Assembly (NCBI GenBank): GCA_025964675.1
Contig: JAOPYI010000241.1
Location: 1-56,165 of the forward strand
Reading direction: 5' to 3'
DNA length: 56,165 bases
DNA from: Sphaerisporangium sp.
GTDB taxonomy: Bacteria > Actinomycetota > Actinomycetes > Streptosporangiales > Streptosporangiaceae
Shown piece after piece: positions 1,217-19,578 of the stretch. Every line of letters starts with the position of its first letter. Position 1 is the first letter of the stretch. Made by a program: the position numbers and the translations under genes. The notes beneath the pieces were generated by a model. It saw nothing but the letters and a program-made list of their open reading frames with translations, did not search any database and was not told where the DNA came from.

Positions 1217-2737
1217 TCAGCCGGCGGCGGAGAGGACCAGTTGCGGCGCGATGGAGAAGGCAACGGAGACCACCAGCGCCACCGCGACGGCGATGGCGAC
1301 CGGCCGCGAGGGCGTACGGGCGGCGCTCGGCCCAGCCGCCGGCACGGGGGCGAAAAGGCGTGCGGTCCAGGCGATGTAGTAGTAGAGCGCGATCACCGTG
1401 TTGACCGCCATGACGACGGCCAGCCAGGCGCCGCCCCCCTGGACGATCTCCCGGAAGACGACGATCTTGGCGAACAGCCCGGCGAGTCCCGGCGGCAGGC
1501 CGGCCAGGCAGATGAGGAAGAACGCGAGCGCGAGCGCGGCGGCGGGGTTGTGGAACGCCAGCCCCCGGTAGTCGTCCAGCTCGTTCCGGGCCTTCGTACG
1601 GCTCACGAGCATCACCACGGCGAACGCGCCGACGTTCATCGCCGCGTAGATCGCCAGGTACGCGATGGAGGCCGCCGCGGCTGACTTCCCCGCCACTCCC
1701 AGCGGAGCGAGGATGTATCCGGACTGGGCGACCGACGACCACGCCAGCAGCCGTACGGCATGCCGTTGCCGGAGCGCCAGCAGGTTGCCCACGGTCATCG
1801 TGAGCGCGGCGAGCACCGCCACGATCGGCGCCCAGAGCCGTGCCTGGCCCGCCAGCGCGATAGTCAGCACGACGATCAGACCGGCGAATCCCGCGGCCTT
1901 GGAGATGACGGACAGCAGCGCCGCCACGGGGACGGGAGCGCCCTGGTAGACGTCCCCGGCCCAGAAGTGGAACGGGACGGCGGCCACCTTGAACGCGAAC
2001 CCGGCCAGCACCAGCACGATGGCGACCGTGAGGACCCCACTCGGCACGCCGGCGGGCCCGCCGGCCAGAGTCTGGGCGAGCACGTCCGCGACGGGTGGCG
2101 TGCCGCCCAGCCGGGCAGCGATGCGGTCGAGATAGACGGAGCCGGTCAGGCCGTACAGGAGCGAGACGCCGAAGAGCATGACGGCCGTGGAGATGACCGA
2201 GACGAGGAACAGCTTGATCGCCGCCTCCGAGGCCCGGGCGTCGTACCGCTTCAGGGCCGTCAGCGCGAAGACCGGGAGCGAGACCAGCTCGAGCGCGACC
2301 ACCAGCATGATGAGATCGCGGGAAGCGGGAAGGGTGACGGCGCCGGTCAGCGTGCACAGCAGCAGGAAGTACCACTCGCCAGTGGGGATCCCGCCTTCGG
2401 CGAGCTGGGCCCACGAGAGGAGCACCACCACGATCGCGGCGGCCAGCACGACGCCGCCGAAGACGAGCGTGAGGTCGTCCACGACGAAGGAGCACGACGC
2501 CCGCCCGACGCCGCCGAGGTCCGCCGGGACGCAGAAGGTACGGAGCGCGGTCCCCCGTACGGCCTGCGCCACGACGGCGGCCAGCGCGGCGAGCACGCCG
2601 GCCAGCGTGACGAGGCCCAGGAGCGAGCGCGTGCGGGGCGTACGCGGGAGGAACGCGTCGAGCAGCAGCACCAGCCCGGCCACCAGCGCCAGGATCAGGG
2701 GTGGCGCGATGGCCGCGTAGTCGATCGACTGGATCAT
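1217..2737 (-). CDS. nuoN: NADH-quinone oxidoreductase subunit N
   Basis: Antiporter-like proton-pumping subunit of the complex I membrane arm, 506 residues with about 14 predicted membrane helices. The conserved features are present: a helix-5 glutamate in VVALELVSLPVF and the lysine segment KVAAVPFHFWAGDVYQGAP, followed by a second lysine in SVISKAAGF. The ATG at 2737 overlaps the nuoM stop by 4 bp, so translation is coupled. It is last in the nuoI-J-K-L-M-N run. Pumping residues look intact, so this is not a decayed copy. Confidence 0.96.
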   Translation of the reverse strand: MIQSIDYAAIAPPLILALVAGLVLLLDAFLPRTPRTRSLLGLVTLAGVLAALAAVVAQAVRGTALRTFCVPADLGGVGRASCSFVVDDLTLVFGGVVLAAAIVVVLLSWAQLAEGGIPTGEWYFLLLCTLTGAVTLPASRDLIMLVVALELVSLPVFALTALKRYDARASEAAIKLFLVSVISTAVMLFGVSLLYGLTGSVYLDRIAARLGGTPPVADVLAQTLAGGPAGVPSGVLTVAIVLVLAGFAFKVAAVPFHFWAGDVYQGAPVPVAALLSVISKAAGFAGLIVVLTIALAGQARLWAPIVAVLAALTMTVGNLLALRQRHAVRLLAWSSVAQSGYILAPLGVAGKSAAAASIAYLAIYAAMNVGAFAVVMLVSRTKARNELDDYRGLAFHNPAAALALAFFLICLAGLPPGLAGLFAKIVVFREIVQGGGAWLAVVMAVNTVIALYYYIAWTARLFAPVPAAGPSAARTPSRPVAIAVAVALVVSVAFSIAPQLVLSAAG

Positions 2738-4254
2738 GGGGCCCCCAGGAAGGCCTGTACCGCCGGATCGGTCACGGCCAGTAGCGCCTTGGGCCAGAGC
2801 CCCAGCGCCACTGTGAGGACGATCAAGGGGGTCCAGGCGGCCAGCTCGTACGGGGTCACGTCGCGCTCCGTCGGGATGACAAGCGAAGGGGCGGGTTCCT
2901 CCGGCCTGCCGTGGGTGACGCGGGAGAGCATGAGAAGGAAGTACGCGGCGGTCAGCACGGTTCCGATGCCGCCGACGGCCATGAAGACGAGGAACAGCGG
3001 CCGGGACAGGCCGGGAGCCGGGTGGAAGGCGCCGAGCAACGCGAGCATCTCACCCCAGAACCCCGCCAGACCGGGCAGGCCGAGCGAGGCGACGCACGCG
3101 AACGTCAGCAGCGATCCCAGGTAGGGCAGGCGGGCCAGCATGCCTCCTCCGAGCCGGGGCATCTCCGCCGTGCCATACCGCTCCTTGATCGCCCCCGCGA
3201 TGAAGAAAAGCAGGCCAGTGATCAGACCGTGGGCGACATTTCCGAATAGAGCCGCATTCATCCCGACAGGCGTCAGCGTCGCCAGGCCCAGCAGTACGAA
3301 CCCCATGTGGCCGACGGAGGAGTACGCGATCATGCGCTTGAGGTCGCGCTGGGCCAGGCAGGCCAGCGAGCCGTACATGATGCCCACGACGGCGAAGGCG
3401 CCCAGCCAGGGAGCGAGCGCCGCGGCCCCCTCGGGAAGCACGGGAACGGCGATGCGCGCGAAGCCGTACGTGCCCATCTTGAGCAGCACGCCCGCGAGCA
3501 GCACCGAACCGACGGTCGGAGCCTCGGTGTGGGCGGCGGGGAGCCACGTGTGAAGCGGCCACATCGGCGCCTTGACGGCCAGGCCGAGCCCCACCGCGAG
3601 GAACGCCACGATTTGCACCGCGCGGGGCATCCCCGCGCCGTGCGCGTGGGCCAGCCGGACCATGTCCAGCGTGCCGGTGTGAGCCCAGATCAGGAGCAGG
3701 CCGAGGAGCAGTACGGCCGAGCCCAGCAGCGTGTAGAGGATGAACTTGACCGCCGCGGCCCTGCGCTCCCCGCCGCCCCAGACGGCGATCACGAAGTACA
3801 TCGGGATCAGCACGATCTCGAAGAAGACGAAGAACAGCAGCAGGTCGAGCGCGAGGAACGTCCCGATCATGCCGACCTCGAGCACCAGCAGCGTGAAGAC
3901 CAGCGCCCGGAACCTGCCGCCCTCCGGCTTGTGACGCACGAGGTACAGGAAGCAGAGGAACGTCAGCAGCGCGGTGAGGACCACGAGCGGAAGCGATATC
4001 CCGTCCACACCCAGGTGGAACCGGAGGTCCAGCCCGGGGACCCACGCCCGGTCGACCTCGAGCTGTGTCCGCGCGGCGTGGCCGTAGTCGAACAAGACCG
4101 CCAGCACGAGGGCCAGCACCAGCGTGAGACCGGATACGACGGGGCCGTACCACTGGAGGAACTGCCCTTGGCGACTCGAAGGTCGCCTGAACGGTATGAG
4201 GATGGCCGCGCCCGCCAGCGGGACGGCGAGAAGCCCGATCACCATCGCGCTCAT
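2734..4254 (-). CDS. nuoM: NADH-quinone oxidoreductase subunit M
   Basis: Second antiporter-like subunit, 506 residues, about 14 membrane helices. The key glutamate lies in FFEIVLIPMYFVIAVWG and the key lysine in KAPMWPLHTWLPAAHTEAPT, both typical of NuoM. The start ATG at 4254 overlaps the nuoL stop by 4 bp, and its own stop overlaps the nuoN start by 4 bp. Membrane arm, proton translocation. Confidence 0.96.
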   Translation of the reverse strand: MSAMVIGLLAVPLAGAAILIPFRRPSSRQGQFLQWYGPVVSGLTLVLALVLAVLFDYGHAARTQLEVDRAWVPGLDLRFHLGVDGISLPLVVLTALLTFLCFLYLVRHKPEGGRFRALVFTLLVLEVGMIGTFLALDLLLFFVFFEIVLIPMYFVIAVWGGGERRAAAVKFILYTLLGSAVLLLGLLLIWAHTGTLDMVRLAHAHGAGMPRAVQIVAFLAVGLGLAVKAPMWPLHTWLPAAHTEAPTVGSVLLAGVLLKMGTYGFARIAVPVLPEGAAALAPWLGAFAVVGIMYGSLACLAQRDLKRMIAYSSVGHMGFVLLGLATLTPVGMNAALFGNVAHGLITGLLFFIAGAIKERYGTAEMPRLGGGMLARLPYLGSLLTFACVASLGLPGLAGFWGEMLALLGAFHPAPGLSRPLFLVFMAVGGIGTVLTAAYFLLMLSRVTHGRPEEPAPSLVIPTERDVTPYELAAWTPLIVLTVALGLWPKALLAVTDPAVQAFLGAP

Positions 4255-6206
4255 CCCAGCACCACCGCCCCGACGGCGATGATCAGCACGCCGGCGAGTA
4301 CGCCCGTCAGGTACAGCTGGGCGTTGCCGGTCTGCAGGCGGCGCAGGAGCCCCGATGCCCCGACCGCGAGGCTGCCGGAGCCGCGTACCGCGCCGTCCAC
4401 GACCGTGTCATCCGTACGGGCCACCACTCGTGCCAGCCACAGGACCGGTGCGACGAAGAGCCGGGAGTACACCGCGTCCACGTGGAACGCCTGCCGGCAG
4501 GGCACCTGGAACGGCCCGAGCACGCGGGCCGGGTCGGCCGCCGGATCGGCTCGCCAGGCCGCGTACACGACACCCGCGCCGAGGAGTGCCACCAGCAGGC
4601 TGACCGCCGCTGTCGACCATTCCAGCGTGCCCGCCCCGGCGAAGCCGAGAAGCAGCGCGGGAACGGCCAGCACGCCTATGGGCCACAGCATCGACGCCGG
4701 AGCCTCACGGCCGTCCCAGACGTGGGCCACCCCCGGCTCGGGCTCGGGCAGCGCGACGCTGTGGACCCGGCTCTCCCCGAAGAACGTCCGGAGCCATGCG
4801 CGGGTGGCGTACGCGCCGGTGACGGCGACGGTGAGCAGCGCGCAGCCGTACAGGAGCCAGGCGGCGGCGTCGGTCAGCGGCCCCGGCCCGGCCGCCGCGT
4901 GCTCGATCGCGGCCAGCACGGCGTCCTTGCTGAAGAACCCGCTGGCCGGAGGCAGCCCCACCAGGGCGGCGAACCCGATGGTCATGGCAGGGAAGGTGAT
5001 CGTCATGGATCGCCGGAGCCCGCCCATGTCGCTCATGAGGTTCGAGCCGACGGCGTGGATCACGGCGCCCGCGCACAGGAAGAGCAGCGCCTTGAACGCC
5101 CCGTGCGTGATCAGGTGGAAGACCGCCGCCTCGTCGGACCCCGCGGCAAGGGCCCCGGCCATGTACGCGAGCTGGCTGATCGTCGAGTACGCGAGCACCC
5201 GTTTCAGGTCGTCCTGGGCCAGGGCCGCCAGCGCGGCGCCGAGCATCCCCAGCGAGGCGATCACCGCGAGCAGGTCCAGCGTGGGCCGGGCGCCGAGGAA
5301 GGCGGGGTAGAGACGGGCGACGACGAAGATGCCGGCGGCGACCATCGTGGCGGCGTGGATGAGCGCGCTGATCGGCGTGGGGCCCGCCATCGCGTCCGGC
5401 AGCCAGGTGTGCAGGGGCACCTGAGCGCTCTTGCCAGCGACTCCAAGGAGCAGCAGCATCGTCGCGGCCACCAGGGTGCCGGTGGACATCTGCGGCACCT
5501 TCCCGATGACGTCGTCGATACGGAAGCTTCCGGCGGCGAACCCGAGCGTGAAGATTCCGAACAGGAAGCCGACGTCACCGATGCGCGTGACAAGGAACGC
5601 CTTGACCGCCGCACGCGAGTTCGCGCGGTCCTCCCACCAGTGGCCGATCAGGAGGTAGGAGCACAGGCCCATGATCTCCCAGCCCACGTAGAGCACCAGC
5701 AGGTCACCGGCGTACACGACGAGCAGCATGGCGCTGGTGAAGAGGCTGATGAAGGCGCTGTACGAGGGGTAGCGGGGCTCGTCCCGCATGTATCCGACGG
5801 AGTACACCTGTACGGCCAGCGCCACCACGGTCACAAGCACGGCGATGAGAGCGGCGAGGCCGTCCACCCTGAGGCCGGCCGTGATGGGGATCGAGCCGGT
5901 GCCGATCACCGACAGCGTGCCCTGGACGACGCCGGGCAGGCCTTGGCTCCAGAACGCGGAGCCGCCCCCGTAGGATGCCGCGCCACGCGGCAGTGCGCCG
6001 CCCGTCCAGAGGTACGCCACCATCCAGATCGCCAGCACGGTGGAGATCGCGGTAGGCAGGACGGCGATCCACGCCGCCCTCCGGTAGACGGCCGGGTCGA
6101 CCGTCCCGGGCGGGCGTCCGTCGTTCCACAGCCGGCGCGTCCCGAGCAGACCGGCCACCGCCGCCAGGAACGGCGACAGGACGACGATGACCGCCGCGGC
6201 GATCAT
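4251..6206 (-). CDS. nuoL: NADH-quinone oxidoreductase subunit L
   Basis: Distal antiporter-like subunit, 651 residues, with the long C-terminal lateral helix region expected of NuoL. Recognisable segments are [19 protein letters not shown] (glutamate), [20 protein letters not shown] (lysine) and [12 protein letters not shown]. It overlaps nuoK upstream and nuoM downstream by 4 bp each. The pumping residues are kept, so proton translocation is likely retained whatever the electron donor. Confidence 0.96.
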
Positions 6207-6640
6207 GGCGCACCGTCCCTTGCCGGTACGGCTCCTTGTGGCCGCGCCATCGGACCGTCAGGCGAAGGACCGCCTGCCGGGGGATCACTTGGGGGGGCAT
6301 CTCCCGTCGCCGGGCCCTCTCCCCCTGGGTCGTCGGGCTCGGCGAGATCATGGAGGCGGTCGATCTCGACGGTCTGCCGGTTGCGGAACACCGCGAGGAC
6401 GATCGCCAGACCCACCCCCAGCTCGGCGGCGGCGATCACGATGACGAACAGGGTCAGCACCTGGCCGCCGTGGAGCCTGTCCCTGAGCCATACGTCGAAG
6501 GCGACGAGGTTGAGGTTGACCGCGTTGAGCATCAACTCCACCGACATCAGCACGAGGATCGTGTTGCGCCGGGCGAGCACGCCGTACACCCCGATGGAGA
6601 ACAGCAGCGCGGCGAGCACGGCGGGATAGACGACGTGCAC
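6203..6640 (-). CDS. nuoK: NADH-quinone oxidoreductase subunit K with extended C-terminal tail
   Basis: Small membrane subunit. The first ~100 residues are a normal NuoK with three helices and both conserved glutamates ([16 protein letters not shown] and [12 protein letters not shown]). About 45 extra residues follow, rich in Pro, Gly, Asp and Ala; the family is usually about 100 residues, so 145 is long. The ATG at 6640 follows the nuoJ stop by one base. The tail should face the cytoplasm or membrane edge; its function is unknown. NuoI and NuoC of this set also carry Pro-rich tails. Confidence 0.94.
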
Positions 6641-6641
6641 G

Positions 6642-7181
6642 TCAGTCCTTCCCGCCGATGTCGGTACGGGAAAGCACGATCGCGCCGATCAGCGCGGCGA
6701 GCAGCAACACCGACAGCGCTTCGAAGGGCAGCACCCAGTTCCTGAAGATGCTCCTCCCGAGCGGTTCGGCCGCGCCCTCACCCGGCACCAGCGGGGTGTA
6801 GGCGGTGCGGAAGCCGTCGACCACGGTGGTGACGAGGACGGCCGCCGTCGCCACGGCGACCACCACGGCGGCCACCTTGTTACCGGAGTCCAGGTCGGCG
6901 GAGGGGCCGATCGGCGCGCGGGTCAGCATGATGCCGAAGAGCAGCAGCACGACGACTGCTCCGACGTAGATCAAAACCTGCACCCAGGCGACGAACTCGG
7001 CGGTGAGCACCAGGTAGCACCCCGCGAGAGCGCCGAACGAGACGACAAGCCACAGAGCGGCGTGCACGATCTGGCGGGTGGTGACGACCAGCAGCGCCGA
7101 CCCGGCAACCACCGCACCAAGCAGCAGGAAGACGATCTCCTGCGCGGTGGGCGGCCACAGGCCCGGCACCGCCGACGTCAC
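6642..7181 (-). CDS. nuoJ: NADH-quinone oxidoreductase subunit J
   Basis: Membrane subunit J, 179 residues, five hydrophobic segments. The start is GTG at 7181: it overlaps the nuoI stop as GTGA (4 bp) and gives the family-like beginning [21 protein letters not shown] longer frame that opens at 7520 would only translate nuoI out of frame. The conserved early helices ([20 protein letters not shown]) and the Tyr/Gly segment [17 protein letters not shown] are present. The protein ends in a hydrophobic helix followed by RTDIGGKD. Confidence 0.93.
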
Positions 7182-7936
7182 GACTCCTCCACCGATCCAG
7201 ACGACTCCGGCGGCTCCTCCCCGTCGCGTGGTCCCGTGCCCTCCGCGGGCGACCCGGGTGCTTGAGGAGGCTGCGTGCCTTCGGCTGGTCGGGGCTTCTT
7301 GGGCAGGGCGCCGGGAGGGCGGATGGCGCGCACGGCGGCGTGGGAGCTGTCGCCGGTGCGCGGCGTCTCCACCTGGCCGGACTTGCCCGGCCCGGGAGGC
7401 TCCGCCGGGCCACGAGCGGGGCCCGGGCGCTCGCGGGCCGGACGTGAGGCGGCGGCGACCTCCTTGGGCGGCTCGGCGTTCGGCTCGTGCGGGGGCGGGA
7501 CCGGGATGGTCTGGACCCATTCCCCCAGCCTGTCCTTCTCATGAAGGAGGTTGCGGATGTCGTACTCGGCGTACTCGAACTCGGGCGACCAGAACAGCGC
7601 GTCGAACGGGCAGACCTCGATGCAGATGCCGCAGTACATGCACAGCGAGAAGTCGATCGCGAACCGGTCGAGCACGTTGTGGGCACGCGGGCGTCCGCCC
7701 TCGGGAGCCGGTGCCGTCTCCTTGTGCGAGTCGATGAAGATGCACCAGTCGGGACACTCCCGGGCGCAGAGCATGCAAACCGTGCAGTTCTCCTCGACCA
7801 GGGCGATGACACCGCGACTACGAGGTGGCAGATCCGGCCGTACCTCTGGGTATTGCTGGGTGTCCGCCTTGCTCAGCATGTGGCGAAGGGTGACGGCCAG
7901 ACCCTTCGCCAGCCCTTCTCCTGGTATACGAGCCAC
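7178..7936 (-). CDS. nuoI: NADH-quinone oxidoreductase subunit I (two [4Fe-4S] clusters) with Pro-rich tail
   Basis: Peripheral-arm ferredoxin-like subunit that passes electrons toward cluster N2. Two cluster motifs are clear: [12 protein letters not shown] at residues 51-62 and [12 protein letters not shown] at 99-110. The core ends near residue 150. About 100 further residues are rich in Pro, Ala, Glu and Gly and should be disordered. The start is GTG 7936 with no convincing ribosome-binding site, so initiation deserves a check. This is the first gene of the nuoIJKLMN run and has a 160-bp divergent intergenic region of its own, unlike a continuous nuoH-nuoI arrangement. Confidence 0.93.
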
Positions 7937-8083
7937 GGTTCAACATCATGGCGCACATGTGCCTCGCCGTGAATGCGAGGGCCCACGTCGTCTCCCGGTT
8001 TTCCACAATAATCACGACTTTTAGGGACTTTTCCGCCATGACATGTGGTCCTTGTGGCCGATGCGAGACGCTGGGGAAAGTCG

Positions 8084-8096
8084 TATTCTTCGCGTT
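8084..8096 (+). promoter_or_regulatory. Possible -10 element for a leaderless transcript
   Basis: TATTCT at 8084-8089 lies 7 bases before the ATG at 8097, and there is no ribosome-binding site at the usual distance. This is the spacing of actinobacterial leaderless promoters. A matching -35 box is not evident. Confidence 0.3.
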
Positions 8097-9140
8097 ATGC
8101 ACCCGACCGACGGCCACGGGGGCCCGGGATCGGGGCCACCGGGAGGCCCACCCCCTCAGCCCGGTGATCCGAACGGCCCGACCGCTCCACGACCCCGCCA
8201 GGCCGGTCGGCCGTTGCCCGGCCACACGCCACAGGCGCGGCCACCTCAGGACCAAGGGCGTCCCCCGTACGCGGGTCCGCCTCGCCCCGAGCACGGACGT
8301 CCCCCGTACGCGGCGCCGGACCCTCGGCGCGGCAGCGGGCCGTTCCTTCCGCCGAACCCCGACCAGCACGGTGTCCTGCCGTACAACCGGCCGGCGCCGG
8401 GCCCGTACAACCGGCCGGCGCCGGGCCCGTACGGCCGGCCGGGTGCGGGCAATCCTCACGGACATGTCCCCCAGCCGCCCTTCCCTCCCCGCGTCCCTCC
8501 GCCTCCGAACACCAGCGGCGCGGCGAGCATCCTCTGGGCCCTCGCACCGATCTTCACCTGTGGGGCCGCCACGCCGTTCACCATCGGTTACGCGGCGGCG
8601 AAGCTGCGAAGCACGATGCTCGGCCTCTCCGCGGCGATCTACGCCATCGGCATGTGCGTCTTCATCCTCAGTCTCGTGGACTCTGCCGGGGGACGCGAGT
8701 GGCTGCCTGTCCTCGGGATCCTGGGGTCGGCCGGTAGCTGGCTCGGGGGCACGATCCACTCGTTGATCATCCGAGACAAGGTCTTCGACCGCTCGGAATC
8801 CCCCAACGACCACGCCGTGGCCTACGCCCAGCACCGCCGCGAGCTCAGGCAGCAGGCTCGCGAGCTGGTGCAGCGCGACCCGGCGCTGGCGCGTGAGCTG
8901 CGCATCGGGCGCCCCGACCTTCCCCGCCAGTACGACGACGGTGGGCTGGTCGACATCAACCACGCACCCGTCGATGTGATCGCCGGCCTGCCCGGGATGA
9001 CCACCGAGCTCGCAGAACGCGTGGTGGAGGCCCGGACGAACGTCGGCAGCTTCATCTCGGCCGAGGACGTGTCGATCGCCGTGGACCTTCCCCCGCAGCT
9101 CACCGCCGAGCTGCTGGAGCTGACCATCTACCTCCCCTGA
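8097..9140 (+). CDS. Proline-rich membrane protein with C-terminal helix-hairpin-helix domain
   Basis: 347 residues in three parts. Residues 1-140 are disordered and rich in Pro/Gly/Arg, with short repeats (YNRPAPGP twice, RPPYAGP/RPPYAAP). Residues about 142-230 hold two or three hydrophobic segments (SILWALAPIFTCGAATPF and later) like small DUF4190-type membrane proteins. Residues about 283-347 form a ComEA-like helix-hairpin-helix unit (VDINHAPVDVIAGLPGM, then VGSFISAEDV). Such domains bind DNA non-specifically or mediate protein contacts; the function here is unknown. The ATG at 8097 is preferred because upstream residues look non-coding. It sits between the two halves of the nuo set and is transcribed away from nuoI. 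Confidence 0.8.
   Translation: MHPTDGHGGPGSGPPGGPPPQPGDPNGPTAPRPRQAGRPLPGHTPQARPPQDQGRPPYAGPPRPEHGRPPYAAPDPRRGSGPFLPPNPDQHGVLPYNRPAPGPYNRPAPGPYGRPGAGNPHGHVPQPPFPPRVPPPPNTSGAASILWALAPIFTCGAATPFTIGYAAAKLRSTMLGLSAAIYAIGMCVFILSLVDSAGGREWLPVLGILGSAGSWLGGTIHSLIIRDKVFDRSESPNDHAVAYAQHRRELRQQARELVQRDPALARELRIGRPDLPRQYDDGGLVDINHAPVDVIAGLPGMTTELAERVVEARTNVGSFISAEDVSIAVDLPPQLTAELLELTIYLP
8379..8450 (+). repeat. 24-bp tandem repeat inside the Pro-rich coding region
   Basis: Positions 8379-8402 and 8403-8426 are identical 24-bp units encoding PYNRPAPG; 8427-8450 is a third, diverged unit (PYGRPGAG). A different short repeat (CGTCCCCCGTACGCGG, twice) lies about 80-140 bases upstream in the same gene. Confidence 0.85.
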
Positions 9141-9253
9141 CCAGGCCGTACCCCTGAGCAGAGCACCTGGGTCATGCCGGCCGTCGTCTATCAACCAGGT
9201 TGGGCGCCGCCCGCGGGGCGACGGGCGGACTAGAGGGCAGCGGCGGAGGGCAT

Positions 9254-10261
9254 ATGAGCGGGATGAGAGCGGTCGTGTATTCCGAGCCTGGTGGGCCTGA
9301 AGTGCTTCGCGTGGTCGATCGGCCCGTGCCCGAGCCGGGGCCCGGGGAAGTCCGGGTCCACGTCCATGTTTCGGGGGTCAACCCGACGGACTGGAAATCC
9401 AGGAGAGGCGGAAGCCCGTTCCCTGAGCAGGTGCCAGGCCAGGACGGCGCGGGTGAGATCGACGCGGTCGGCCAGGGCGTGCGGCTCGACGTCGGGCAAC
9501 GGGTCTGGATCTGGGAGGCCGCCTGGCAGCGCCCCGAGGGCACGGCGCAGGAGTACGTCGTGCTGCCCGAGGAGCACGCCGTGCCTCTGCCGGACGACGC
9601 GTCATACGACCTGGGAGCCGCCATCGGGATCCCGGCCCTTACCGCACACCGATGCCTCACCGTGGGGAAGGCCGGCCGTCTGCACCCCGGCTCGTTGAAG
9701 GGGCAGACAGTCCTTGTCGCCGGCGGCGCGGGGGCGGTGGGGCACGCCGCGATCCAGCTCGCCCGGTGGGCCGGGGCCACCGTGATGACTACGGTCAGCA
9801 ACCCGGAAAAGGCCGAGCTGGCCCGCGCGTCCGGCGCCCATCACGTGGTGAACTATCGCGCCGAGAACGCCGCCACCGCGATCCGCAAGGTGGCACCGGA
9901 CGGGATGGACATCATCGTCGAGGTCGCCCCCGCCCAGAACGCCGAGTTGGACCAGGCCGTCATCGCTCCGAACGGAGTGATATCGGTCTACGCCAACAAC
10001 GGCGGCGACGAGATGACGCTGCATGTCAGCTCGCTGTACTGGCTGAACGTCCGCTACCAGTTCGTGCTGGTCTACACGATCCCCCATGACGCCAAGAGGG
10101 CCGCCATCGAGGACGTCGGTGCCGCCGTGGCCGCCGGAGCGCTCCAGGTCGGCAAGGCGGCCGGTCTGCCCTTGCACCGTTTCCCCCTTGAACGTACGGC
10201 CGAAGCGCACACGGCGGTGGAGTCCGAAGTGGTGGGCAAGGTACTCATCGATCTGGTCTGA
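9254..10261 (+). CDS. Zinc-type/quinone-reductase-like NADPH dehydrogenase (MDR superfamily)
   Basis: Medium-chain dehydrogenase/reductase of the NADPH:quinone oxidoreductase group, about 335 residues. The N-terminal GroES-like half begins MRAVVYSEPGGPEVLRV. The nucleotide-binding motif AGGAGAVGHAAIQLARWAGA sits near the middle, followed by ASGAHHVVNY. It lacks the cysteine-rich structural zinc loop of alcohol dehydrogenases. GGAGGG lies just upstream of two in-frame ATGs (9254 and 9263); spacing is short for the first and long for the second, so the start is uncertain by three codons. Substrate unknown; quinones or enones are the usual ones. Its end is convergent with the NmrA-type gene. Confidence 0.88.
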   Translation: MSGMRAVVYSEPGGPEVLRVVDRPVPEPGPGEVRVHVHVSGVNPTDWKSRRGGSPFPEQVPGQDGAGEIDAVGQGVRLDVGQRVWIWEAAWQRPEGTAQEYVVLPEEHAVPLPDDASYDLGAAIGIPALTAHRCLTVGKAGRLHPGSLKGQTVLVAGGAGAVGHAAIQLARWAGATVMTTVSNPEKAELARASGAHHVVNYRAENAATAIRKVAPDGMDIIVEVAPAQNAELDQAVIAPNGVISVYANNGGDEMTLHVSSLYWLNVRYQFVLVYTIPHDAKRAAIEDVGAAVAAGALQVGKAAGLPLHRFPLERTAEAHTAVESEVVGKVLIDLV

Positions 10262-10326
10262 CGCCACTGTTCAGTACGGGAGTGCCCGACCGGCGGATGA
10301 TCGCCCTCAAGTCCTACCGAGGCATC

Positions 10327-11217
10327 TCAGGAATCGAGCAGGGCCTGGATCCTGGCCGCGCCTTCCTTCTCCAGCCAGGCGTCGAAGGTCATAAGACCGG
10401 GGTGGAGCCCGCGGAGTGCGGGGATGTCGGCCTGGGTGCCCTTGCCGGAGTTCATGAACTCGTACCCGGCGGCGGCGGTCGCGTTCTGCCGGCGAAGCTC
10501 GTCCATGGGAATCTGAACGTAGGGGACGGTCCGTCCGGTAGCCCGGCTGATGGCGTCCGCTACCTGGGGTGGCGTGAGCGCGTCCCCGGCCAGGTCGACG
10601 GCCCGGCCCCGGTACTCCTCCGGATGCTCGAACGCGAGTGCCGCCAGGGCTGCGATGTCCTCCAGCGCGATCAGTTGCTGCGTCACGTCAGGCAGGATCG
10701 AGGTGACCAGCGCGCCCTCCCGCAGGCCCCACATCGGATGCACGTAGTTCTCCATGAACGACGTCGGCCGCAGGATCGTCGCCGAGAGATCGAGAGACCT
10801 GACGTACTCCTCGATCTCCCATTTGCTCTCCAGGTTGCCGAGGCCCGTACGCTGCTCGGAGCTGTTGCTCGACGTGTAGACGAGATGCCGGACACCGGCC
10901 GCCACCGCGGCGTCGGCCACGTTCCGGCCCCAGCGGATCTGGTCGGCGTTGGTGAAGCCGGGTGGCGTGCCGGGCATTCCCTCGGTGGGCTGGACGCTGA
11001 AGACCCCCTGGACGCCTCGCGTGGCCGCGTCGAGCGAGGCGCGGTCGTCCATGTCCCCGGCGACCACCTGCGCGCCGGCCAGGTGGAGAGCCCGCGCGGC
11101 GGCGGTCGAGGTGTCGCGGGTGAGGGCGCGCACGTTCCAGCCACGGGCGAGCAGGTGCGACGCGGTCGCGCCACCTTGCTGCCCCGTGGCCCCGGTGACG
11201 AGGATCGTGTCGTTCAT
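10327..11217 (-). CDS. NmrA-type NAD(P)-binding reductase
   Basis: Atypical SDR of the NmrA/quinone-reductase group, 296 residues. The Rossmann motif is GATGQQGG at residues 8-15, followed by ALTRDTS and GDMDD, as in NAD(P)-binding NmrA proteins. No catalytic YxxxK is apparent. The ATG at 11217 is preceded by GGAGG at a 5-base spacing, so it is chosen over frames opening at 11253. It is divergent from the TetR gene across about 150 bp that contains repeated candidate operators, so it is a likely target of that regulator. Function may be redox sensing or quinone/enone reduction. Confidence 0.88.
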   Translation of the reverse strand: MNDTILVTGATGQQGGATASHLLARGWNVRALTRDTSTAAARALHLAGAQVVAGDMDDRASLDAATRGVQGVFSVQPTEGMPGTPPGFTNADQIRWGRNVADAAVAAGVRHLVYTSSNSSEQRTGLGNLESKWEIEEYVRSLDLSATILRPTSFMENYVHPMWGLREGALVTSILPDVTQQLIALEDIAALAALAFEHPEEYRGRAVDLAGDALTPPQVADAISRATGRTVPYVQIPMDELRRQNATAAAGYEFMNSGKGTQADIPALRGLHPGLMTFDAWLEKEGAARIQALLDS

Positions 11218-11269
11218 GGCTGCCTCCGGCATGGTGAGATCAGGTGACCACATGTGATGGGTCGAGGGG

Positions 11270-11328
11270 TAGAATCGGAACGATCAACCCGCTTAGGGAC
11301 GATACGGAACGACCGCCCCGGTTGTCAA
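11270..11328. promoter_or_regulatory. Divergent tetR/nmrA promoter region with repeated operator-like sites
   Basis: CGGAACGATC (11276-11285) recurs as CGGAACGACC (11305-11314), 29 bp apart. The first lies in the partial palindrome ATCG-GAA-CGAT. On the minus strand TTGACA (11328-11323) and TATCGT (11304-11299) are 18 bp apart, a good promoter for the NmrA gene, and one repeat falls within that spacer. On the plus strand TAGAAT (11270-11275) directly abuts the other repeat. The arrangement suits repression of both genes by the adjacent TetR protein (inference). Confidence 0.45.
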
Positions 11329-11367
11329 CGCCGACAGGATGAGCCGCGTGCAGGAAGGTCCACCGAG

Positions 11368-12225
11368 ATGATGGACACGAGACCCCCAGACCGGGCCACG
11401 TCCCCGGCGTCACCGCCCGCGACCGGTCCCGCCGGCGTGAAGGCGCCGGCGCCGGGTACGCCGTTGCGGGCGGACGCACGGCGTAACCGGGCACGGGTGC
11501 TGGAGGCGGCAGAGGCGGTGTTCGCGGCGGAGGGCATCGCGGTGCCGCTGGACGAGATCGCCCGCCGGGCCGGGGTGGGGGCCGGCACGGTCTACCGGCA
11601 CTTCCCCACCAAGGAAGCCCTGTTCGAGGCGGTCGTGTCCGAAAGACTCGAACAGCTCATCCATGAAGCCCGCGCCCTGGCCGGCGCCGACGACCCAGGC
11701 CAGGCGTTCTTCGACTTCCTGTTCCGCGTGGTCGAGGGGGCGTTGCTCAACCGGGTTCTCTGCGACGCGCTGGCGGCGGGCACCGGCGTCCACGTCAAGA
11801 TCTCCTGGACGCAGGAGCACTTCACCGAGGCTCTCGGCGAGTTGCTGGTCCGCGCGCAAAAGGCGCACGCGGTACGGCCCGACCTCGACGTCGCCGACGT
11901 ACGCGCCTTCATGGTCGGGTGTGTCGCCATGGAGCAGTACCGAGGGTCACCCGGCCACATGACCTCCATCGCGTACGACGCGCTCCATCCGGCGGCACGG
12001 CCGCGACGCTCCCCGGAAGGGCGTAACGAAACTAGCGCGGCAACTCGTAACGAAACCGCTCAGGCCCGCTGCGAGGTGTGCGGCGGCGAGATACCTGCCG
12101 CCCGCACCGGCAGGCCCGCCAGGTTCTGCGGCCCGGCGTGCCGCCAGAAGGCACACCGCCGGCGCGGGTCCAGCCAGAGTTTGGACGGTGCCCACCCGGG
12201 CACGCGCGACATACGAGAGACATAG
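11368..12225 (+). CDS. TetR-family regulator with extra C-terminal CxxC/CxxxC motif
   Basis: 285 residues. The helix-turn-helix region (about residues 40-90) contains ADARRNRARVLEAAEAVFA and AGVGAGTVYRHFPTKEALFE, typical of TetR. A ligand-binding domain follows to about residue 215. The remaining ~70 residues are unusual: four cysteines at about 235, 238, 254 and 258 (RCEVCGG, then RFCGPACRQKAHRRR) suggest a small zinc-binding knuckle with a basic end. AGGAAGG lies 9 bases before ATG 11368. The downstream SDR begins 16 bases after the stop, so the two are probably one operon. It likely controls itself and the divergent NmrA gene. Confidence 0.9.
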   Translation: MMDTRPPDRATSPASPPATGPAGVKAPAPGTPLRADARRNRARVLEAAEAVFAAEGIAVPLDEIARRAGVGAGTVYRHFPTKEALFEAVVSERLEQLIHEARALAGADDPGQAFFDFLFRVVEGALLNRVLCDALAAGTGVHVKISWTQEHFTEALGELLVRAQKAHAVRPDLDVADVRAFMVGCVAMEQYRGSPGHMTSIAYDALHPAARPRRSPEGRNETSAATRNETAQARCEVCGGEIPAARTGRPARFCGPACRQKAHRRRGSSQSLDGAHPGTRDIRET

Positions 12226-12241
12226 GGCAAGGGGGCTTGGC

Positions 12242-12988
12242 ATGGAGCAGCGACGCGTGGTCGTGTCCGGTGGAGGCACCGGCATCGGGCTGGCGACGGC
12301 GGAGGCCTTCGCCGGAGAGGGCGACCAGGTGGTCATCCTCGGCCGCCGCGCCGAGGTGCTGAACGAGGCGGCCGCCAAGCTGAACACCGCCTACGACGCC
12401 GACCTGGTGAGCTGGACCACCGCCGACCTGTCCGACGTGCGGCAGGTGCAGGCCGCGGTGGAGTCGATAGCACTGCGGGGCCCGGTCGATGTGATCGTCA
12501 CGAACGCGGGCGGCAACGTCGCCTTCAACGACGACGGCACCCTGGCGGGCATCGCCGACGCGTACCGGCGCAACTTCGAGGGAAACGTGCTCACGGCGGT
12601 GCTGCTCACCGAGGGCCTCCTGCCCTACCTGCGGCGCCCCGGCGGCCGGATCGTGCACCTGTCCTCCATCGCGGCGATCCGCGGCCCCGGCGCGTACGGG
12701 GGCGCCAAGGCGGCGCTGCACGCTTACACCTACGAGCTGGCGCAGCGCCTCGGGCCCGACGGGGTCACGGTCAACGCGGTGGCCCCGGGGTACATCGCCG
12801 ACACCGAGTTCTTCGGCGACCGGGCGACGCCGGAGTTCGTCAAGTCCCGCGTCGACGGGACGCTGGTCGGCAAGGCGGGTACGCCGGGCGAGGTGGCGGC
12901 GGCGATCAGATATCTGGCCTCCCCCGAGGCCGGTTTCGTCACCGGCCAGATCCTTCACATCAACGGCGGCACGCTACTGGGCCGGTGA
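12242..12988 (+). CDS. Short-chain dehydrogenase/reductase
   Basis: Classical SDR, 248 residues. The cofactor motif SGGGTGIG is at residues 8-15, NAGG near residue 83, and the catalytic set is S in HLSSIAAI plus Y and K in AYGGAKAAL. The end VTGQILHINGGTLLGR is typical of FabG-like members. AAGGGGG lies 6 bases upstream of ATG 12242, preferred over a frame opening at 12188 inside the regulator. It is co-directional with the TetR gene and convergent with nuoH (18 bases between the stops). Substrate unknown. Confidence 0.92.
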   Translation: MEQRRVVVSGGGTGIGLATAEAFAGEGDQVVILGRRAEVLNEAAAKLNTAYDADLVSWTTADLSDVRQVQAAVESIALRGPVDVIVTNAGGNVAFNDDGTLAGIADAYRRNFEGNVLTAVLLTEGLLPYLRRPGGRIVHLSSIAAIRGPGAYGGAKAALHAYTYELAQRLGPDGVTVNAVAPGYIADTEFFGDRATPEFVKSRVDGTLVGKAGTPGEVAAAIRYLASPEAGFVTGQILHINGGTLLGR

Positions 12989-13006
12989 CCACGGGCCGCG
13001 ACCGTG

Positions 13007-13960
13007 TCATCCGGCGAGCACCCTGACGACGCCGGTGAGGGCGAGCTGGAGCAGGGCGAGGGGGACCAGTCCGATCCAGGCGAGCTTCTGGAGCTGGTCC
13101 GCCCGCAGCCGGGGGAAGGTGACCCGCACCCAGATCACCACGAAGGCCAGCACGAAAACCTTGATCAGTGTCCAGATGGGGCCCGGCAGCAGAGGTCCGT
13201 GCCATCCGCCGAGGAACAGCACGGTGGTCAGCGCCGAGAGCACCACGATCCCGACGTACTCCGCGAGCATGAAGAGCGCGAAGCGGATGCCGGTGTACTC
13301 CGTCATGGGGCCCATGATGATCTCGGATTCGGCGATCGGCATGTCGAACGGCGGCCTGCGCAGCTCGGCGAGCCCGGCGATGAAGAACACCACCGCGCCG
13401 ATGGCCTGCCACGGCAGCCACCACCACCGCCACGCCTCCACGATGCCCGGCAGCGACAGTGTGCCCGCCGCCATCGCGACCGACGACGCCGCGAGGACCA
13501 GCGGCAGCTCGTACGACGTGAGCTGCGCCGCCGCCCGCATGCCGCCGAGCACGGAGTACTTGTTGGCGGACGACCAGCCGGCCATGATCGAGCCGAGCAC
13601 GCCGACGCCCATCACGGCCAGTACGAAGAACAGGCCGGCGTCGAGGTCGGTGCCGAACAGGCCCGGGCCGACCGGGATGACGACCATCACGACGAGGTAC
13701 GGCACGAGCGCCACGGCCGGGGCGATGGAGAACACCCTGCGGTCGGCCGCCACCGGGATGACGTCCTCCTTCTGGGCGAACTTCACGCCGTCGGCGATGA
13801 GCTGAGCCCAGCCGTGGAACCCCCCGGCGTACATCGGGCCGAGGCGGGACTGCATGTGGGCCATGGCCTTGTGCTCGGTCTGCCCGACGATCAGCGGCAG
13901 CGTAAGGAACGCGATGACGATCACCGCGAGACGGATCGCGACGTCGAGCACCTCAGCCAT
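13007..13960 (-). CDS. nuoH: NADH-quinone oxidoreductase subunit H
   Basis: Membrane subunit at the junction of the two arms that helps form the quinone site; 317 residues, eight or more helices. Diagnostic loops are present: [20 protein letters not shown] and the acidic loop [18 protein letters not shown]. The ATG at 13960 overlaps the end of nuoC by 8 bp, which leaves no space for a nuoD gene between them. It ends the nuoABCH group; the next gene on this strand is the NmrA-type gene, about 1.8 kb further on. Confidence 0.95.
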
Positions 13961-14642
13961 CGCCGCCCTCCTCCTCCGGGCGCGTAGGCGGCCCGGGCTG
14001 GGCGGGTTGCGGCGGATCCACGGGCTGGGCGGGCGCCTCTCCGGGACGGGCCTGAGGGTCGGGGCCGCGTACGGCCCGGGGGCCCCGGGTCGGCGGCGGC
14101 GTGGTCGCCGACGGACCCCAGTCGGCGGGGACGCCGGGAGGTAGCGTCTTGCGGCGGCTGGGTGAGCCCTGCCCCGACTCGCCGGGCTCCTTGGCTCCGG
14201 GCCACGGCCTGGCGACCCGGGAGGCGAGGATGAAGTCCTTGCGGAGCGGGTGGCCCTCGAACCCGTCGGGCAGCAGCAGTGGTACGAGGTGGGGGTGACC
14301 CTCGAAGATCACTCCGAACATCTCGAAGGTCTCGCGCTCGTGCCAGTCGGCGCCCCGGTAGACGCCCGTGGCGCTCGGCATCCGGGGGTCGTCGCGCGGC
14401 ACCCGGGTGCGGACCAGCAGGTGGGCGTGCTGGACGGGGTCGAAGACGTGGGTGACGACGGAGAAGCCGTCCGGGGGGTCGTCGACTCCGGTCAGCCAGT
14501 CGAAGAACACGCAGCCGAGGCTGTCGCGGGCGAAGGTCAGCAGGTCGATCCAGTCGCCGGCGCCGACGTCCACGGTGATCTCACCGAACGCCTCCGAGAT
14601 CTCGGCGCGCGCACCGTACCGCTCCTCGATCTCGGCCCTCAC
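13953..14642 (-). CDS. nuoC: NADH-quinone oxidoreductase subunit C with Pro-rich tail
   Basis: Peripheral 30-kDa-type subunit, 229 residues. The family signature region reads [18 protein letters not shown], then [11 protein letters not shown]. The usual Asp of the ERE..DMFG signature is Glu here. The start is GTG 14642, overlapping the nuoB stop as GTGA; a longer frame opening at 15062 would read nuoB out of frame. After about residue 150 comes a tail rich in Pro, Arg and Gly, echoing NuoI and NuoK. NuoC normally works bound to NuoD, which is absent here. Confidence 0.92.
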
Positions 14643-15172
14643 GGCCTCACGTCCGGCTGGGGCCCGTAGCGCTCGCCGAGGGACTCTGCGGCGATCTTCT
14701 CCTGGAGCTTCATGATGCCGTGAAGCAGTGCCTCGGGCCGTGGGGGGCAGCCGGGCACGTAGACGTCGACCGGGATGATCTGGTCGACGCCCTTGGTCAC
14801 GCAGTAGGAGTCCCAGTAGGGACCGCCGCAGTTGGAGCAGGCGCCGAACGAGATGACGTACTTGGGGTCGGGCATCTGCTCGTACAGGCGCTTGACGGCC
14901 GGGGCCATCTTGTCGGTCACGGTGCCCGACACGATCATGAGGTCCGCCTGCCGTGGCCCGTTGGCGAAGGGGATCACTCCGAAGCGGATGAAGTCGTGAC
15001 GGCTCATCGAGGTGGCGATGAACTCGATCGCGCAGCAGGCCAGCCCGAAGTTGAACACCCACAGCGAGTAGCGCCGCCCCCAGTTGAGGATGAAGCGCAT
15101 CGGTTTGGGGGCGAGCCGGGACACCGGCCCGACAGTGGGCATCGGGAGATCGCTGGCGGCCATACGGGTCAT
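14639..15172 (-). CDS. nuoB: NADH-quinone oxidoreductase subunit B (cluster N2)
   Basis: Carries the terminal [4Fe-4S] cluster N2, which reduces quinone. The four ligands are visible: the tandem CC at residues 46-47 ([10 protein letters not shown]), a Cys of [10 protein letters not shown] near 112-115, and the Cys of [11 protein letters not shown] at 142. Length 177 residues, normal. nuoC overlaps its stop by 4 bp, and 13 bases separate it from nuoA. In complex I the NuoB-NuoD interface forms the quinone pocket; here the partner must come from elsewhere or be dispensable. Confidence 0.96.
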
Positions 15173-15185
15173 TCTCCCCTCTTCG

Positions 15186-15557
15186 TCACGTCCAGGCGAG
15201 CACGCGCTTGCGCCATGCGTACAGGATGCCGATCGCGATGAAGGCCAGGAAGACGAACATCTCGACCAGCGTGGTCATGCCGAAGCCCGGAGCCGCGAAG
15301 ACCGTCGCCCAGGGGAACAGGAACACGGCGTCAACGGCGAAGACGACATAGAGGTAGGTAAAGACGTAGTACCTGATCTGCGACTGGGCCCAGCCCTCGC
15401 CGACGGGGTCGACGCCGCACTCGTAGGTCAGGAGCTTCTCTGGGGTGGGGTGGCTCGGGCGGAGCAGCCGGTTGACGAGGAGCGCCCCGGCGAAGATGGC
15501 GACGCCGATCGCCAACATCACGGCCACGACAGCGTATGAACCGAAATATCCGTTCAC
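15186..15557 (-). CDS. nuoA: NADH-quinone oxidoreductase subunit A
   Basis: Small membrane subunit, 123 residues, three helices. The conserved loop [11 protein letters not shown] and the helix segment [12 protein letters not shown] identify it. The start is GTG 15557 with GGGGAGG four bases upstream; a frame opening at 15701 adds Arg/Pro-rich residues that do not fit the family. It is first in the nuoABCH group, with its promoter expected in the 232-bp region shared with the divergent deacetylase gene. Confidence 0.94.
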
Positions 15558-17559: not shown

Positions 17560-17724
17560 CCGCGTCCGCGGTGTGACGAAAGATCGATGCCGTCGCGAGG
17601 ACATGGGCCACGCCCCCGCTCGACGCGCATGCGTAAAGAAGCCGCGCAGCCCCAAGGGATCTAGCATGGAAATGAATACGTGCCACGAGCGACGGCGCCC
17701 AGGCGCGTCGAGGAGGACCGAGCT
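17489..17724 (+). other. korA upstream untranslated region
   Basis: Apart from the second hairpin (17542-17559), nothing clear is seen. AGGAGG at 17711-17716 is the korA ribosome-binding site. TAGCAT at 17662-17667 could be a -10 for a second korA promoter, but no -35 supports it. Longer open frames here run antisense or into korA and lack coding character. Confidence 0.4.
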
Positions 17725-19578
17725 GTGACCAAGCAGGTTCAGCAACTCGACCGCGTGATCATTCGCTTCGCGGGCGACTCCGGCGACGGCATGCAGCTGA
17801 CCGGTGATCGTTTTACGGCGGAGACCGCGCAGTTCGGGAACGACCTTTCGACCCTGCCCAACTTCCCCGCGGAGATCCGCGCCCCCGCAGGCACGCTCCC
17901 CGGCGTGTCGAGCTTTCAGCTCCACTTCGCCGACCACGACATCCTGACCCCGGGCGACGCCCCCAACGTCCTCGTCGCGATGAACCCCGCGGCGCTGAAG
18001 GCCAACCTCGGCGACCTGCCGCGCGGGGCCGACATCATCGCCAACACCGACGAGTTCACCAAGCGCAACCTGCAGAAGGTCGGTTACACCGAGAGTCCCG
18101 TGGACGACGGCTCACTCGGGGAGTGGCGCGTGCACGCCGTCCCCCTCACGTCGCTGACGGTCAAGGCGCTCGAGGGCTTCGGCGTCTCCAAGAAGGACGC
18201 CGAGCGGGCGAAGAACATGTTCGCGCTCGGCCTGCTGTCCTGGCTGTACCACCGGCCCACCGAGGCGACGGTGAAGTTCCTCGAGCTCAAGTTCGCCAAG
18301 AAGCCCGACATCGCCAAGGCGAACATCGCGGCATTCCAGGCGGGGTGGAACTACGGCGAGACCACCGAGTCCTTCTCGGTGTCGTACGAGATCAAGCCGG
18401 CCAAGCTGACCCCGGGCCTCTACCGCAACATCTCCGGCAACCAGGCGCTGGCCTACGGCCTGATCGCCGCCTCGGTCCAGTCGAAGCTGCCGCTGTTCCT
18501 CGGGTCCTACCCCATCACCCCCGCGTCCGACATCCTCCACGAGCTTTCCAAGCACAAGCGGTTCGGCATCCGCACCTTCCAGGCGGAGGACGAGATCGCC
18601 GGCGTGGGCGCCGCCCTCGGCGCGGCGTTCGGCGGCGCGCTCGGCGTGACCACCACATCGGGCCCCGGAGTCGCGCTCAAGGCGGAGACCGTGGGCCTCG
18701 CCGTCACCACCGAGCTCCCGCTGCTCGTGATCGACGTCCAGCGGGCCGGCCCCTCGACGGGCATGCCGACCAAGACCGAGCAGACCGACCTGCTCATGGC
18801 GATGTACGGCCGCAACGGCGAGTCCCCGGTGCCGATCGTGGCGCCCGCGACCCCGTCCGACTGCTTCGACGCGGCGCTGGAGGCGGCGCGGATCGCCGTG
18901 AAGTACCGCACGCCGGTCATGCTGCTGTCCGACGGCTATCTCGCGAACGGTTCGGAGCCGTGGCGGCTCCCCGAGATAGACGAGCTGCCCGACCTGTCGA
19001 TCGAGTTCACCGTGGCGCCGAACGCCGACGACGGCGAGACATACCTCCCGTTCAAGCGCGACCCGCAGACGCTGGCCCGGCCGTGGGCCGTCCCCGGCAC
19101 CCCGGGCCTCGAGCACCGTATCGGCGGCATCGAGAAGGCCGACGGCACGGGCAACATCTCCTACGACCCCAACAACCACGACCTGATGGTCCGGCTCCGC
19201 CAGGCCAAGATCGACGGCATCGCGCAGGACATCCCGCCGCTGGCCGTCGACGACCTCGAGGGCGACGCCCGCGTGCTGGTCCTCGGCTGGGGCTCGACGT
19301 ACGGGCCGATCGCGGCGGCGGTACGGCGTGTGAGGAAGGCCGGCGGGAAGGTCGCGCAGGCCCACATCCGCCACCTGAACCCTCTGCCGCCCAACACCGG
19401 CGAGGTGCTGCGCTCGTACGACAAGGTGCTGCTGCCGGAGATCAACCTCGGCCAGCTCGCGCTGCTCCTCCGCGCGCGCTTCCTGGTCGACATCATCAGC
19501 TACAACCGCGTGCGCGGTCTTCCCTTCAAGGCCGAAGAGCTGGCCGGAGTGATCCAGGAAGTGATCGACAGTGAGTGA
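17725..19578 (+). CDS. korA: 2-oxoacid:ferredoxin oxidoreductase subunit alpha (fused gamma-alpha)
   Basis: Oxidises a 2-oxoacid, probably 2-oxoglutarate, to the acyl-CoA and passes electrons to ferredoxin. 617 residues. The N-terminal gamma domain has RFAGDSGDGMQLTGDRF at about residues 14-30. The alpha domain begins near residue 230, with SYPITPASDILHEL and a QAEDEIAG segment; the C-terminal part contains LVLGWGSTYGPI. GTG 17725 has AGGAGG 8 bases upstream. korB overlaps its end by 8 bp. The gene pair follows a leader-peptide attenuator. The KorA/KorB form without an extra ferredoxin subunit is usual in actinomycetes. Confidence 0.95.
   Translation: MTKQVQQLDRVIIRFAGDSGDGMQLTGDRFTAETAQFGNDLSTLPNFPAEIRAPAGTLPGVSSFQLHFADHDILTPGDAPNVLVAMNPAALKANLGDLPRGADIIANTDEFTKRNLQKVGYTESPVDDGSLGEWRVHAVPLTSLTVKALEGFGVSKKDAERAKNMFALGLLSWLYHRPTEATVKFLELKFAKKPDIAKANIAAFQAGWNYGETTESFSVSYEIKPAKLTPGLYRNISGNQALAYGLIAASVQSKLPLFLGSYPITPASDILHELSKHKRFGIRTFQAEDEIAGVGAALGAAFGGALGVTTTSGPGVALKAETVGLAVTTELPLLVIDVQRAGPSTGMPTKTEQTDLLMAMYGRNGESPVPIVAPATPSDCFDAALEAARIAVKYRTPVMLLSDGYLANGSEPWRLPEIDELPDLSIEFTVAPNADDGETYLPFKRDPQTLARPWAVPGTPGLEHRIGGIEKADGTGNISYDPNNHDLMVRLRQAKIDGIAQDIPPLAVDDLEGDARVLVLGWGSTYGPIAAAVRRVRKAGGKVAQAHIRHLNPLPPNTGEVLRSYDKVLLPEINLGQLALLLRARFLVDIISYNRVRGLPFKAEELAGVIQEVIDSE

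Follow-up and report, generated by a model that had tools for sequence, protein, structure and literature searches.

The stretch of DNA examined here, referred to as the window, is the whole of contig JAOPYI010000241.1 (C109, 56165 bases) from a 7.77-Mb Sphaerisporangium sp. genome that is 99.5% complete in 313 contigs. It carries a gene set for respiratory complex I comprising ten subunits, all encoded on the minus strand and each matching its NCBIfam Nuo model with an E value of 2.7e-27 or better. These are nuoA2 (15186..15542; subunit A model, 1.3e-34; start codon unproven), nuoB2 (14639..15172; TIGR01957, 8.7e-67), nuoC2 (13953..14642; TIGR01961, 1.5e-29), nuoH2 (13007..13960; NF004741, 5.9e-92), nuoI2 (7178..7936; TIGR01971, 2.7e-27), nuoJ2 (6642..7151; NF005163, 7.5e-35; start approximate), nuoK2 (6203..6640; NF004320, 6e-30), nuoL2 (4251..6206; TIGR01974, 8.2e-148), nuoM2 (2734..4254; TIGR01972, 2.8e-155) and nuoN2 (1217..2737; TIGR01770, 1.1e-98). 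Matches for subunits B, H, K, L and M pass the curated cut-offs, and those for A, C, I, J and N fall below them, the last by 1.3 bits. An earlier sequence-only reading had described these genes properly and assigned them to 7178..15557, but the set extends further, with nuoN2 ending 1.2 kb short of the contig edge, and an insert at 8043..12988 went unmentioned. By eye, nuoC2 starts with a GTG that overlaps the nuoB2 stop; its product has a proline-rich C-terminus. Its end at 13953 and the nuoH2 start at 13960 give precisely the 8-bp overlap claimed in that reading.

The residues expected of a working enzyme are retained, as that reading had also stated. Alignments reveal four cysteines in NuoB2 (CC...C...C) that bind iron-sulfur cluster N2, along with an intact conserved loop (DFIRFG...PRQADLM). 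NuoI2 has its N-terminal segment, both CxxCxxCxxxC motifs for 4Fe-4S clusters and a proline-rich tail, and thus the ligands of N6a and N6b are present as well. NuoL2, NuoM2 and NuoN2 retain, as judged by eye, the conserved Glu and Lys residues that we take to be the pumping residues. The reported absence of nuoD, nuoE, nuoF and nuoG is likewise borne out. When NuoD, NuoE, NuoF and NuoG of the same genome were compared by blastp with the open reading frames (ORFs) of the window, no match with E < 1 appeared among those listed, and whole-genome profile searches with PF00346 and PF01512 returned nothing on this contig. NuoF-like PF01512 matches occur on C304 (the canonical operon), C267 and C186, and on neither C109 nor C87. 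Thus, no NuoE, NuoF or NuoG was found within the set among the matches listed; a NuoE or NuoG serving it from elsewhere was not searched for.

NuoD itself has not been lost from the genome. PF00346 matches fall on C304, on C87 (one protein in two pieces) and on C219, and the two items that the sequence-only reading proposed to look for, a 14-gene operon and a solitary nuoD, are both among them. C304 carries the complete operon from nuoA to nuoN, whereas C87, a contig of 121.5 kb, carries a solitary nuoD2 of 391 aa about 36 kb from its start (G000:C87:36220-37395). This gene adjoins an aminotransferase-V gene and lies about 3 kb from a gene for a methyltransferase of the MidA/NDUFAF7 family, in which the Methyltransf_28 domain is present (PF02636, 3.2e-20); other neighbours, named by eye, are ftsH, folE, folP, panE, panC and nadB. 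True loss of NuoD was rejected on the strength of these genome-wide matches and of co-occurrence across the class. Two further candidates were also set aside. The NuoCD-like protein of C219 sits in its own hydrogenase-4/Ehr-like cluster (L006:8864-16067; labels by eye), and this large subunit lacks NiFe cysteine pairs, having SGDT at the CxxC site and no pair at its C-terminus. A role for NuoD2 as a group 4 NiFe hydrogenase is contradicted by the lack of CxxC pairs, by eye, in the NuoD2 of this genome. With NuoA, B, C, H, I, J, K, L, M and N encoded in the window and NuoD2 on C87, we consider it highly probable that the set represents a ferredoxin-type complex I of 11 subunits that is free of the NADH module and receives its NuoD2 in trans. 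The apparent puzzle of a missing subunit is thereby resolved.

The distribution of these proteins was charted in 197 genomes of the class, a sample in which kinship inflates co-occurrence counts. A NuoD2 call required at least 40% identity and a match extending to the C-terminus, with two partial matches (G021 and G097) also admitted; NuoH2 required at least 61% identity, NuoI2 an E value of 1e-30 or better, and MidA a PF02636 match. NuoD2 is present in 86 genomes among the matches listed, which extend to about E 1e-66 so that weaker ones may be missed, NuoI2 in 88, NuoH2 in 53 and PF02636 in 77. NuoD2 and NuoI2 occur together in 83 genomes and are both missing from 106, leaving three with NuoD2 only (G070, G097 and G190) and five with NuoI2 only. 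NuoI2 accompanies NuoH2 in all 53 genomes that carry the latter, and NuoD2 does so in 51, the two others being incomplete (G014, 72%; G108, 80%). Within the window's own family, NuoD2, NuoI2 and MidA are found together in 8 of 16 genomes and none of the three is found in the other 8. One of the discordant genomes, G190 (94% complete), has NuoD2 with a MidA-like neighbour (L190), yet neither NuoI2 nor a second NuoC was found in it.

These counts bear on two alternatives. One holds that NuoB, NuoC, NuoH and NuoI form a complex without any NuoD and operate by a different mechanism, as the absence of nuoD from the window might suggest; the near-universal presence of NuoD2 in NuoH2 genomes, with both exceptions incomplete, renders this idea barely credible. 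The notion in the sequence-only reading that the set works in a different way survives only insofar as NuoD2 carries an unusual residue, described below. The other alternative takes the NuoD of this set to be NuoD1, on loan from the 14-gene operon, and gives the solitary NuoD2 some other purpose. NuoD1 is indeed at hand, and NuoB1 and NuoB2 are about half identical, but NuoD2 follows NuoI2 with only the 8 discordant genomes noted above, and NuoD1 has an operon of its own and differs at the two positions that distinguish NuoD2. In addition, 16 of 20 chosen loci from other classes of the phylum have nuoD2 within their version of the cluster, in the order nuoABCDHIJKLMN; L080 and L090 (both metagenome-assembled genomes) likewise carry it in the cluster. 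We therefore regard borrowing from the operon as improbable. The earlier suggestion that NuoD comes from a second operon was right about supply in trans; the likely source is the dedicated nuoD2 on C87 rather than the operon on C304.

Separation of nuoD2 from its partners is the rule in this lineage. Our comparison covers 110 loci with membrane-arm genes (arm-bearing loci), including those of the class sample and two repeats (L037/L156 and L081/L142); a NuoI2 scan of named genomes contributed the best 80 of 575 loci, mostly from Streptomyces and Streptosporangiales-type genera. Both nuoC and nuoH are seen in 100 of the arm-bearing loci, and only L080 and L090 among these also hold nuoD2. Retention of nuoC without nuoD, which the sequence-only reading had singled out as odd, is therefore normal here. 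Among the 20 loci from other classes, the four without an in-cluster nuoD2 are in G284, G353, G373 and G216. In the last of these (L250), nuoC2 lies immediately ahead of the displaced nuoD2, the two having moved jointly to a place beside midA and apart from the A-B-H-I... set.

NuoD2 also differs from NuoD1 in sequence. Trp occupies the quinone-tyrosine position in 51 of 51 NuoD2 sequences, and all 51 have the arginine of an HRG-type motif (HRS in a few); the quinone His is present in 47, the exceptions being four genomes that lack the membrane arm (L177, L184, L185 and L187). Another 24 alignment rows, namely 7 from a further group of nuoD2 loci, 16 in-cluster from other classes, and L090 (counted also among the 51), with the window genome's own sequence excluded and L251 omitted as a NuoD1, uniformly show Arg (HRG or HRA), Trp and His. 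By comparison, NuoD1 proteins from 20 genomes have HTG, with Thr, and Tyr in every case. The five best solved chains, which are mitochondrial, Thermus and cyanobacterial, all have Tyr, with HTG in Thermus and HRG in the others. In the NuoD2 of the window's genome the usual, non-defining quinone-site Tyr is replaced by Trp while the His is retained, and for this reason we call the set a variant of the 11-subunit complex I. Passages of PMC8042128 place the HRGxE arginine near N2, describe it as dimethylated, report that its mutation removes N2, and state that its E. coli counterpart lacks the dimethylation; the human methylase is identified as NDUFAF7 in a passage of PMC3829151.

The gene for a methylase of this same family travels with nuoD2, which is present in 73 of the 77 midA genomes. 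The solitary nuoD2 abuts midA in G284, G353 and G373, and the displaced nuoD2 of G216 lies within 1 kb of it. A nuoD2 is also within 1 kb of midA in G202, and in G314 the two share a contig at a distance of about 3 kb. Where nuoD2 is in the cluster, midA comes after nuoN2 in 3 of 20 loci (G211, G290 and G225). In 10 of 13 hand-picked same-contig pairs midA is 6.6-7.3 kb from nuoI2, and in the remaining three 13-24 kb. A MidA-like ORF is present in 37 of 51 fetched nuoD2 stretches, on the same strand in 36 of the 37. From the analogy with NDUFAF7, MidA may methylate the HRG arginine of NuoD2. A core respiratory subunit can thus stay remote from its operon across a large lineage yet remain associated with a likely modifying enzyme.

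A candidate electron source lies next to the set. Divergent from it, on the plus strand, are korA (17680..19578; PF01855, 1.6e-51; PF01558, 4.7e-22), which encodes the alpha/gamma subunit of a 2-oxoacid:ferredoxin oxidoreductase, and korB (19571..20632; PF02775, 3.4e-30), which encodes the beta subunit. The substrate is presumably 2-oxoglutarate. Among loci in which korA is visible or which leave 3 kb or more for it, with two repeats dropped and L142 = L081 kept, a divergent korA stands beside the set at 75 of 85 arm-bearing and 21 of 33 arm-less loci. In Streptomyces, korA is often 4-5 kb from the nuo2 set, and a passage of PMC13118837 likewise notes korA/korB near nuoA-C. KorAB is a likely donor to the set.

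Taken together, the gene content, the distinct type of NuoD, the co-occurrence, the association of nuoD2 with midA, the intact residues and the divergent korAB are best explained by the 11-subunit enzyme proposed above. NuoD2 made elsewhere would assemble with NuoB, NuoC, NuoI and NuoH, and MidA would dimethylate the HRG arginine adjacent to N2. Ferredoxin reduced by KorAB, or KorAB directly, would give electrons to NuoI, from which they would pass to N2 and then to menaquinone at a site where Trp replaces Tyr, and the membrane arm would pump protons.

Several observations weigh against parts of this proposal. With Trp at the quinone-tyrosine position, the chemistry of the quinone might be altered or poor, and proton pumping is something we infer from residues alone. 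Because the foreign genes of the insert split nuoI-N from nuoA-H, co-transcription in the window is uncertain. A NuoH2 match is absent from 35 of the 86 NuoD2 genomes, which suggests that NuoD2 partners NuoB, NuoC and NuoI rather than the arm. KorA occurs in 154 of 197 genomes, and hence is not specific to the nuo2 set, and the arm-less genomes without a korA match number at least two (G065 and G116); KorAB is accordingly neither a proven nor an obligate donor. The bond with midA is not strict either. No MidA-like ORF is seen in 14 of the 51 nuoD2 stretches, L080 and L090 included, and 13 of the 86 NuoD2 genomes have no PF02636 match, although three of these 13 (G020, G128 and G190) do have a MidA-like neighbour by blastp; four genomes have PF02636 but no NuoD2. 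In the phylum sample, PF02636 is unmatched in 23 of 79 NuoI2 genomes, and NuoI2 is unmatched in 10 of 66 PF02636 genomes.

The insert also invites the view that these nuo genes are the non-functional leftovers of a complex I duplicate in decay. It consists of five unrelated genes on both strands (8043..12988), assigned by Pfam to a helix-hairpin-helix (ComEA-like) protein, a Zn-dehydrogenase, an NmrA-like protein, a TetR protein and a short-chain dehydrogenase; the absence of NuoEFG and the loss of the arm in relatives would fit decay as well. Nevertheless, the iron-sulfur ligands and conserved arm residues are intact, and the ratio of nonsynonymous to synonymous substitution (dN/dS, here a simple pairwise count) is 0.06-0.32 for NuoD2, B2, C2, I2 and H2 between the window's genome and G151. 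Moreover, the nuoH-nuoI gap exceeds 500 nt in 22 of 110 arm-bearing loci, and a passage of PMC3765725 suggests that nuo2 of Streptomyces is transcribed as one operon. Decay is thus very improbable. Relatives of the helix-hairpin-helix gene also lie between C/H and I in L008, L016, L159 and others, and the other four insert genes were not found in other arm-bearing loci apart from a weak dehydrogenase match in L098.

The surprising part of this family is a group of derivatives without the membrane arm. Among the 88 NuoI2 genomes, 35 yield no NuoH2 match; NuoH2 is the one arm subunit whose absence was checked across whole genomes. At 36 loci, including one repeat (L024 = L109), the order is nuoB-nuoC-nuoI, nuoH being absent from its place between the last two, and nuoI is not followed by nuoJ-N where the contig extends far enough. 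Six short loci were moved into this arm-less group on the strength of a C-I interval without H, the G016 trio is split across two contig ends, and L082 was left unassigned. NuoD2 is found in 32 of the 35 arm-less genomes; the exceptions, G004, G023 and G042, are 93%, 80% and 85% complete. G030 shows the membrane arm in the course of decay: its nuoC2 and nuoI2 flank a nuoH relic (L010:7930-8301) of 123 aa with an internal deletion.

The proteins that remain have also changed. The distance from the preceding stop to the first NuoI cysteine is at least 140 nt in 110 of 110 arm-bearing loci, versus 32-86 nt in 33 of 35 arm-less loci measured (G161 and G030 are the exceptions). The two NuoI cluster motifs are kept in all 110 arm-bearing and 36 arm-less loci, and the four N2 cysteines of NuoB2 in 35 of 35 arm-less rows, one of them a repeat. 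The D..R.G...PRQADLM residues of NuoB2, each at 97% across the 102 arm-bearing rows, reach only 6-46% in arm-less ones; this PRQAD loop presumably lines the quinone site and the contact with NuoH. Columns outside the loop (F42, I49, M89 and I153) also drop, to 6-17%, so general divergence contributes. G161, a case of recent loss, has RHG and PRRAD in place of the usual RFG and PRQAD, and its NuoI N-terminal segment is already broken by Gly/Pro. Recent arm loss is seen at L008 (G161) and at L132/L133 (G016); the sampled congeners G087 and G141 keep the arm.

A tree of NuoD2, built from 51 rows by a quick method and showing long branches, requires three changes of architecture, three of them forced by starred branches, and these may be read as three arm losses given arm-bearing forms at its base. 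The dN/dS values in four arm-less pairs are 0.025-0.35 over D2, B2, C2 and I2. The arm-less core is unlikely to dock on the canonical membrane arm, since the NuoI N-terminal segment and the NuoB loop are eroded. At several loci (L020, L105, L106, L111, L117, L125 and L127-L130) the canonical nuo operon is followed after a few kb by the nuoB-C-I trio, with korAB present or absent in between.

We judge the chances to be about even that actinomycetes have repeatedly made a membrane-free NuoB-C-D-I enzyme in this way. Such an enzyme would have dropped the whole arm, would dock on no other, and would keep N6a, N6b, N2 and the MidA-linked arginine after losing the NuoB quinone loop. Its electrons, supplied by KorAB, ferredoxin or a different donor, would go to an acceptor without known precedent among complexes I. 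These derivatives pose the question of what the quinone module of complex I does with neither a pump nor a quinone loop. The conserved job of the family might be electron transfer by NuoBCDI rather than pumping, the arm being a dispensable coupling module in the window's genome as well. The three arm losses asked for by the tree while B, C, D and I are kept, dN/dS well under 1 in arm-less cores, and retention of N2 and both NuoI clusters all lend this some appeal. We nonetheless find it rather doubtful for arm-bearing genomes, where NuoH2 is itself conserved (dN/dS 0.105-0.185 in three pairs) and the PRQAD loop is intact.

A split nuoD2 has been published for Streptomyces, and hence the layout is already known. 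Passages of PMC3765725 and PMC8388888 describe nuo2 (sco4606-4607 = nuoL2/nuoM2) as a second set with a separate nuoD2. Like the window, it lacks the NADH module and is contiguous except for the remote nuoD2, the window's version being interrupted by the five genes; the Streptomyces loci fetched here share the gene order, many with korAB nearby. The gene lists in the published passages omit nuoC2, whereas we find it in 51 of 59 Streptomyces loci, the rest of which include cut-off contigs. None of the 59 has the nuoH-nuoI insert (no more than 215 nt separate the stop from the first cysteine), and midA, the Trp, korAB and arm-less relatives go unmentioned in those passages.

Other known systems resemble the proposed enzyme in part. 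Published complexes I without NuoEFG also have ferredoxin as a proposed donor, but there nuoD is within the operon, unlike the trans-encoded, midA-associated NuoD2 with its Trp. NDUFAF7/MidA and Arg85 of NDUFS2 (R121 in Yarrowia), as described in passages of PMC3829151 and PMC8042128, share the PF02636 methyltransferase family and the HRGxE arginine by N2. In contrast to the Thr of the 20 actinobacterial NuoD1 proteins, NuoD2 has this arginine as a putative methylation target, and thus one cell holding NuoD1 (Thr/Tyr) and NuoD2 (Arg/Trp) offers a natural pair for testing the roles of NDUFAF7-type methylation and of the quinone tyrosine. KorAB of Mycobacterium tuberculosis is similarly a 2-oxoglutarate:ferredoxin oxidoreductase made of a fused alpha/gamma subunit and a beta subunit, and it is common across Actinobacteria; the term nuo is absent from the main text of PMC2773412, whereas here korAB is divergent to nuo2. 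The name nuoBCDI in the literature was considered as a possible arm-less set and rejected: in the passages concerned it denotes a Chloroflexi operon split or the quinone module, and the Propionibacterium passage lists nuoA-N. What is new here is the Trp/Arg signature of NuoD2, the nuoD2-midA linkage and the arm-less nuoB-C-I derivatives; nothing on the Trp, a bacterial midA link or arm-less sets was found in the open-licence papers searched, which is weak evidence of absence.

Immediately after nuoN2, the window encodes an M48 (HtpX-like) peptidase on the minus strand (266..1192; PF01435, 4.4e-33). This peptidase gene is a frequent neighbour of nuo2 in many loci, and in several arm-less loci it directly follows nuoI.

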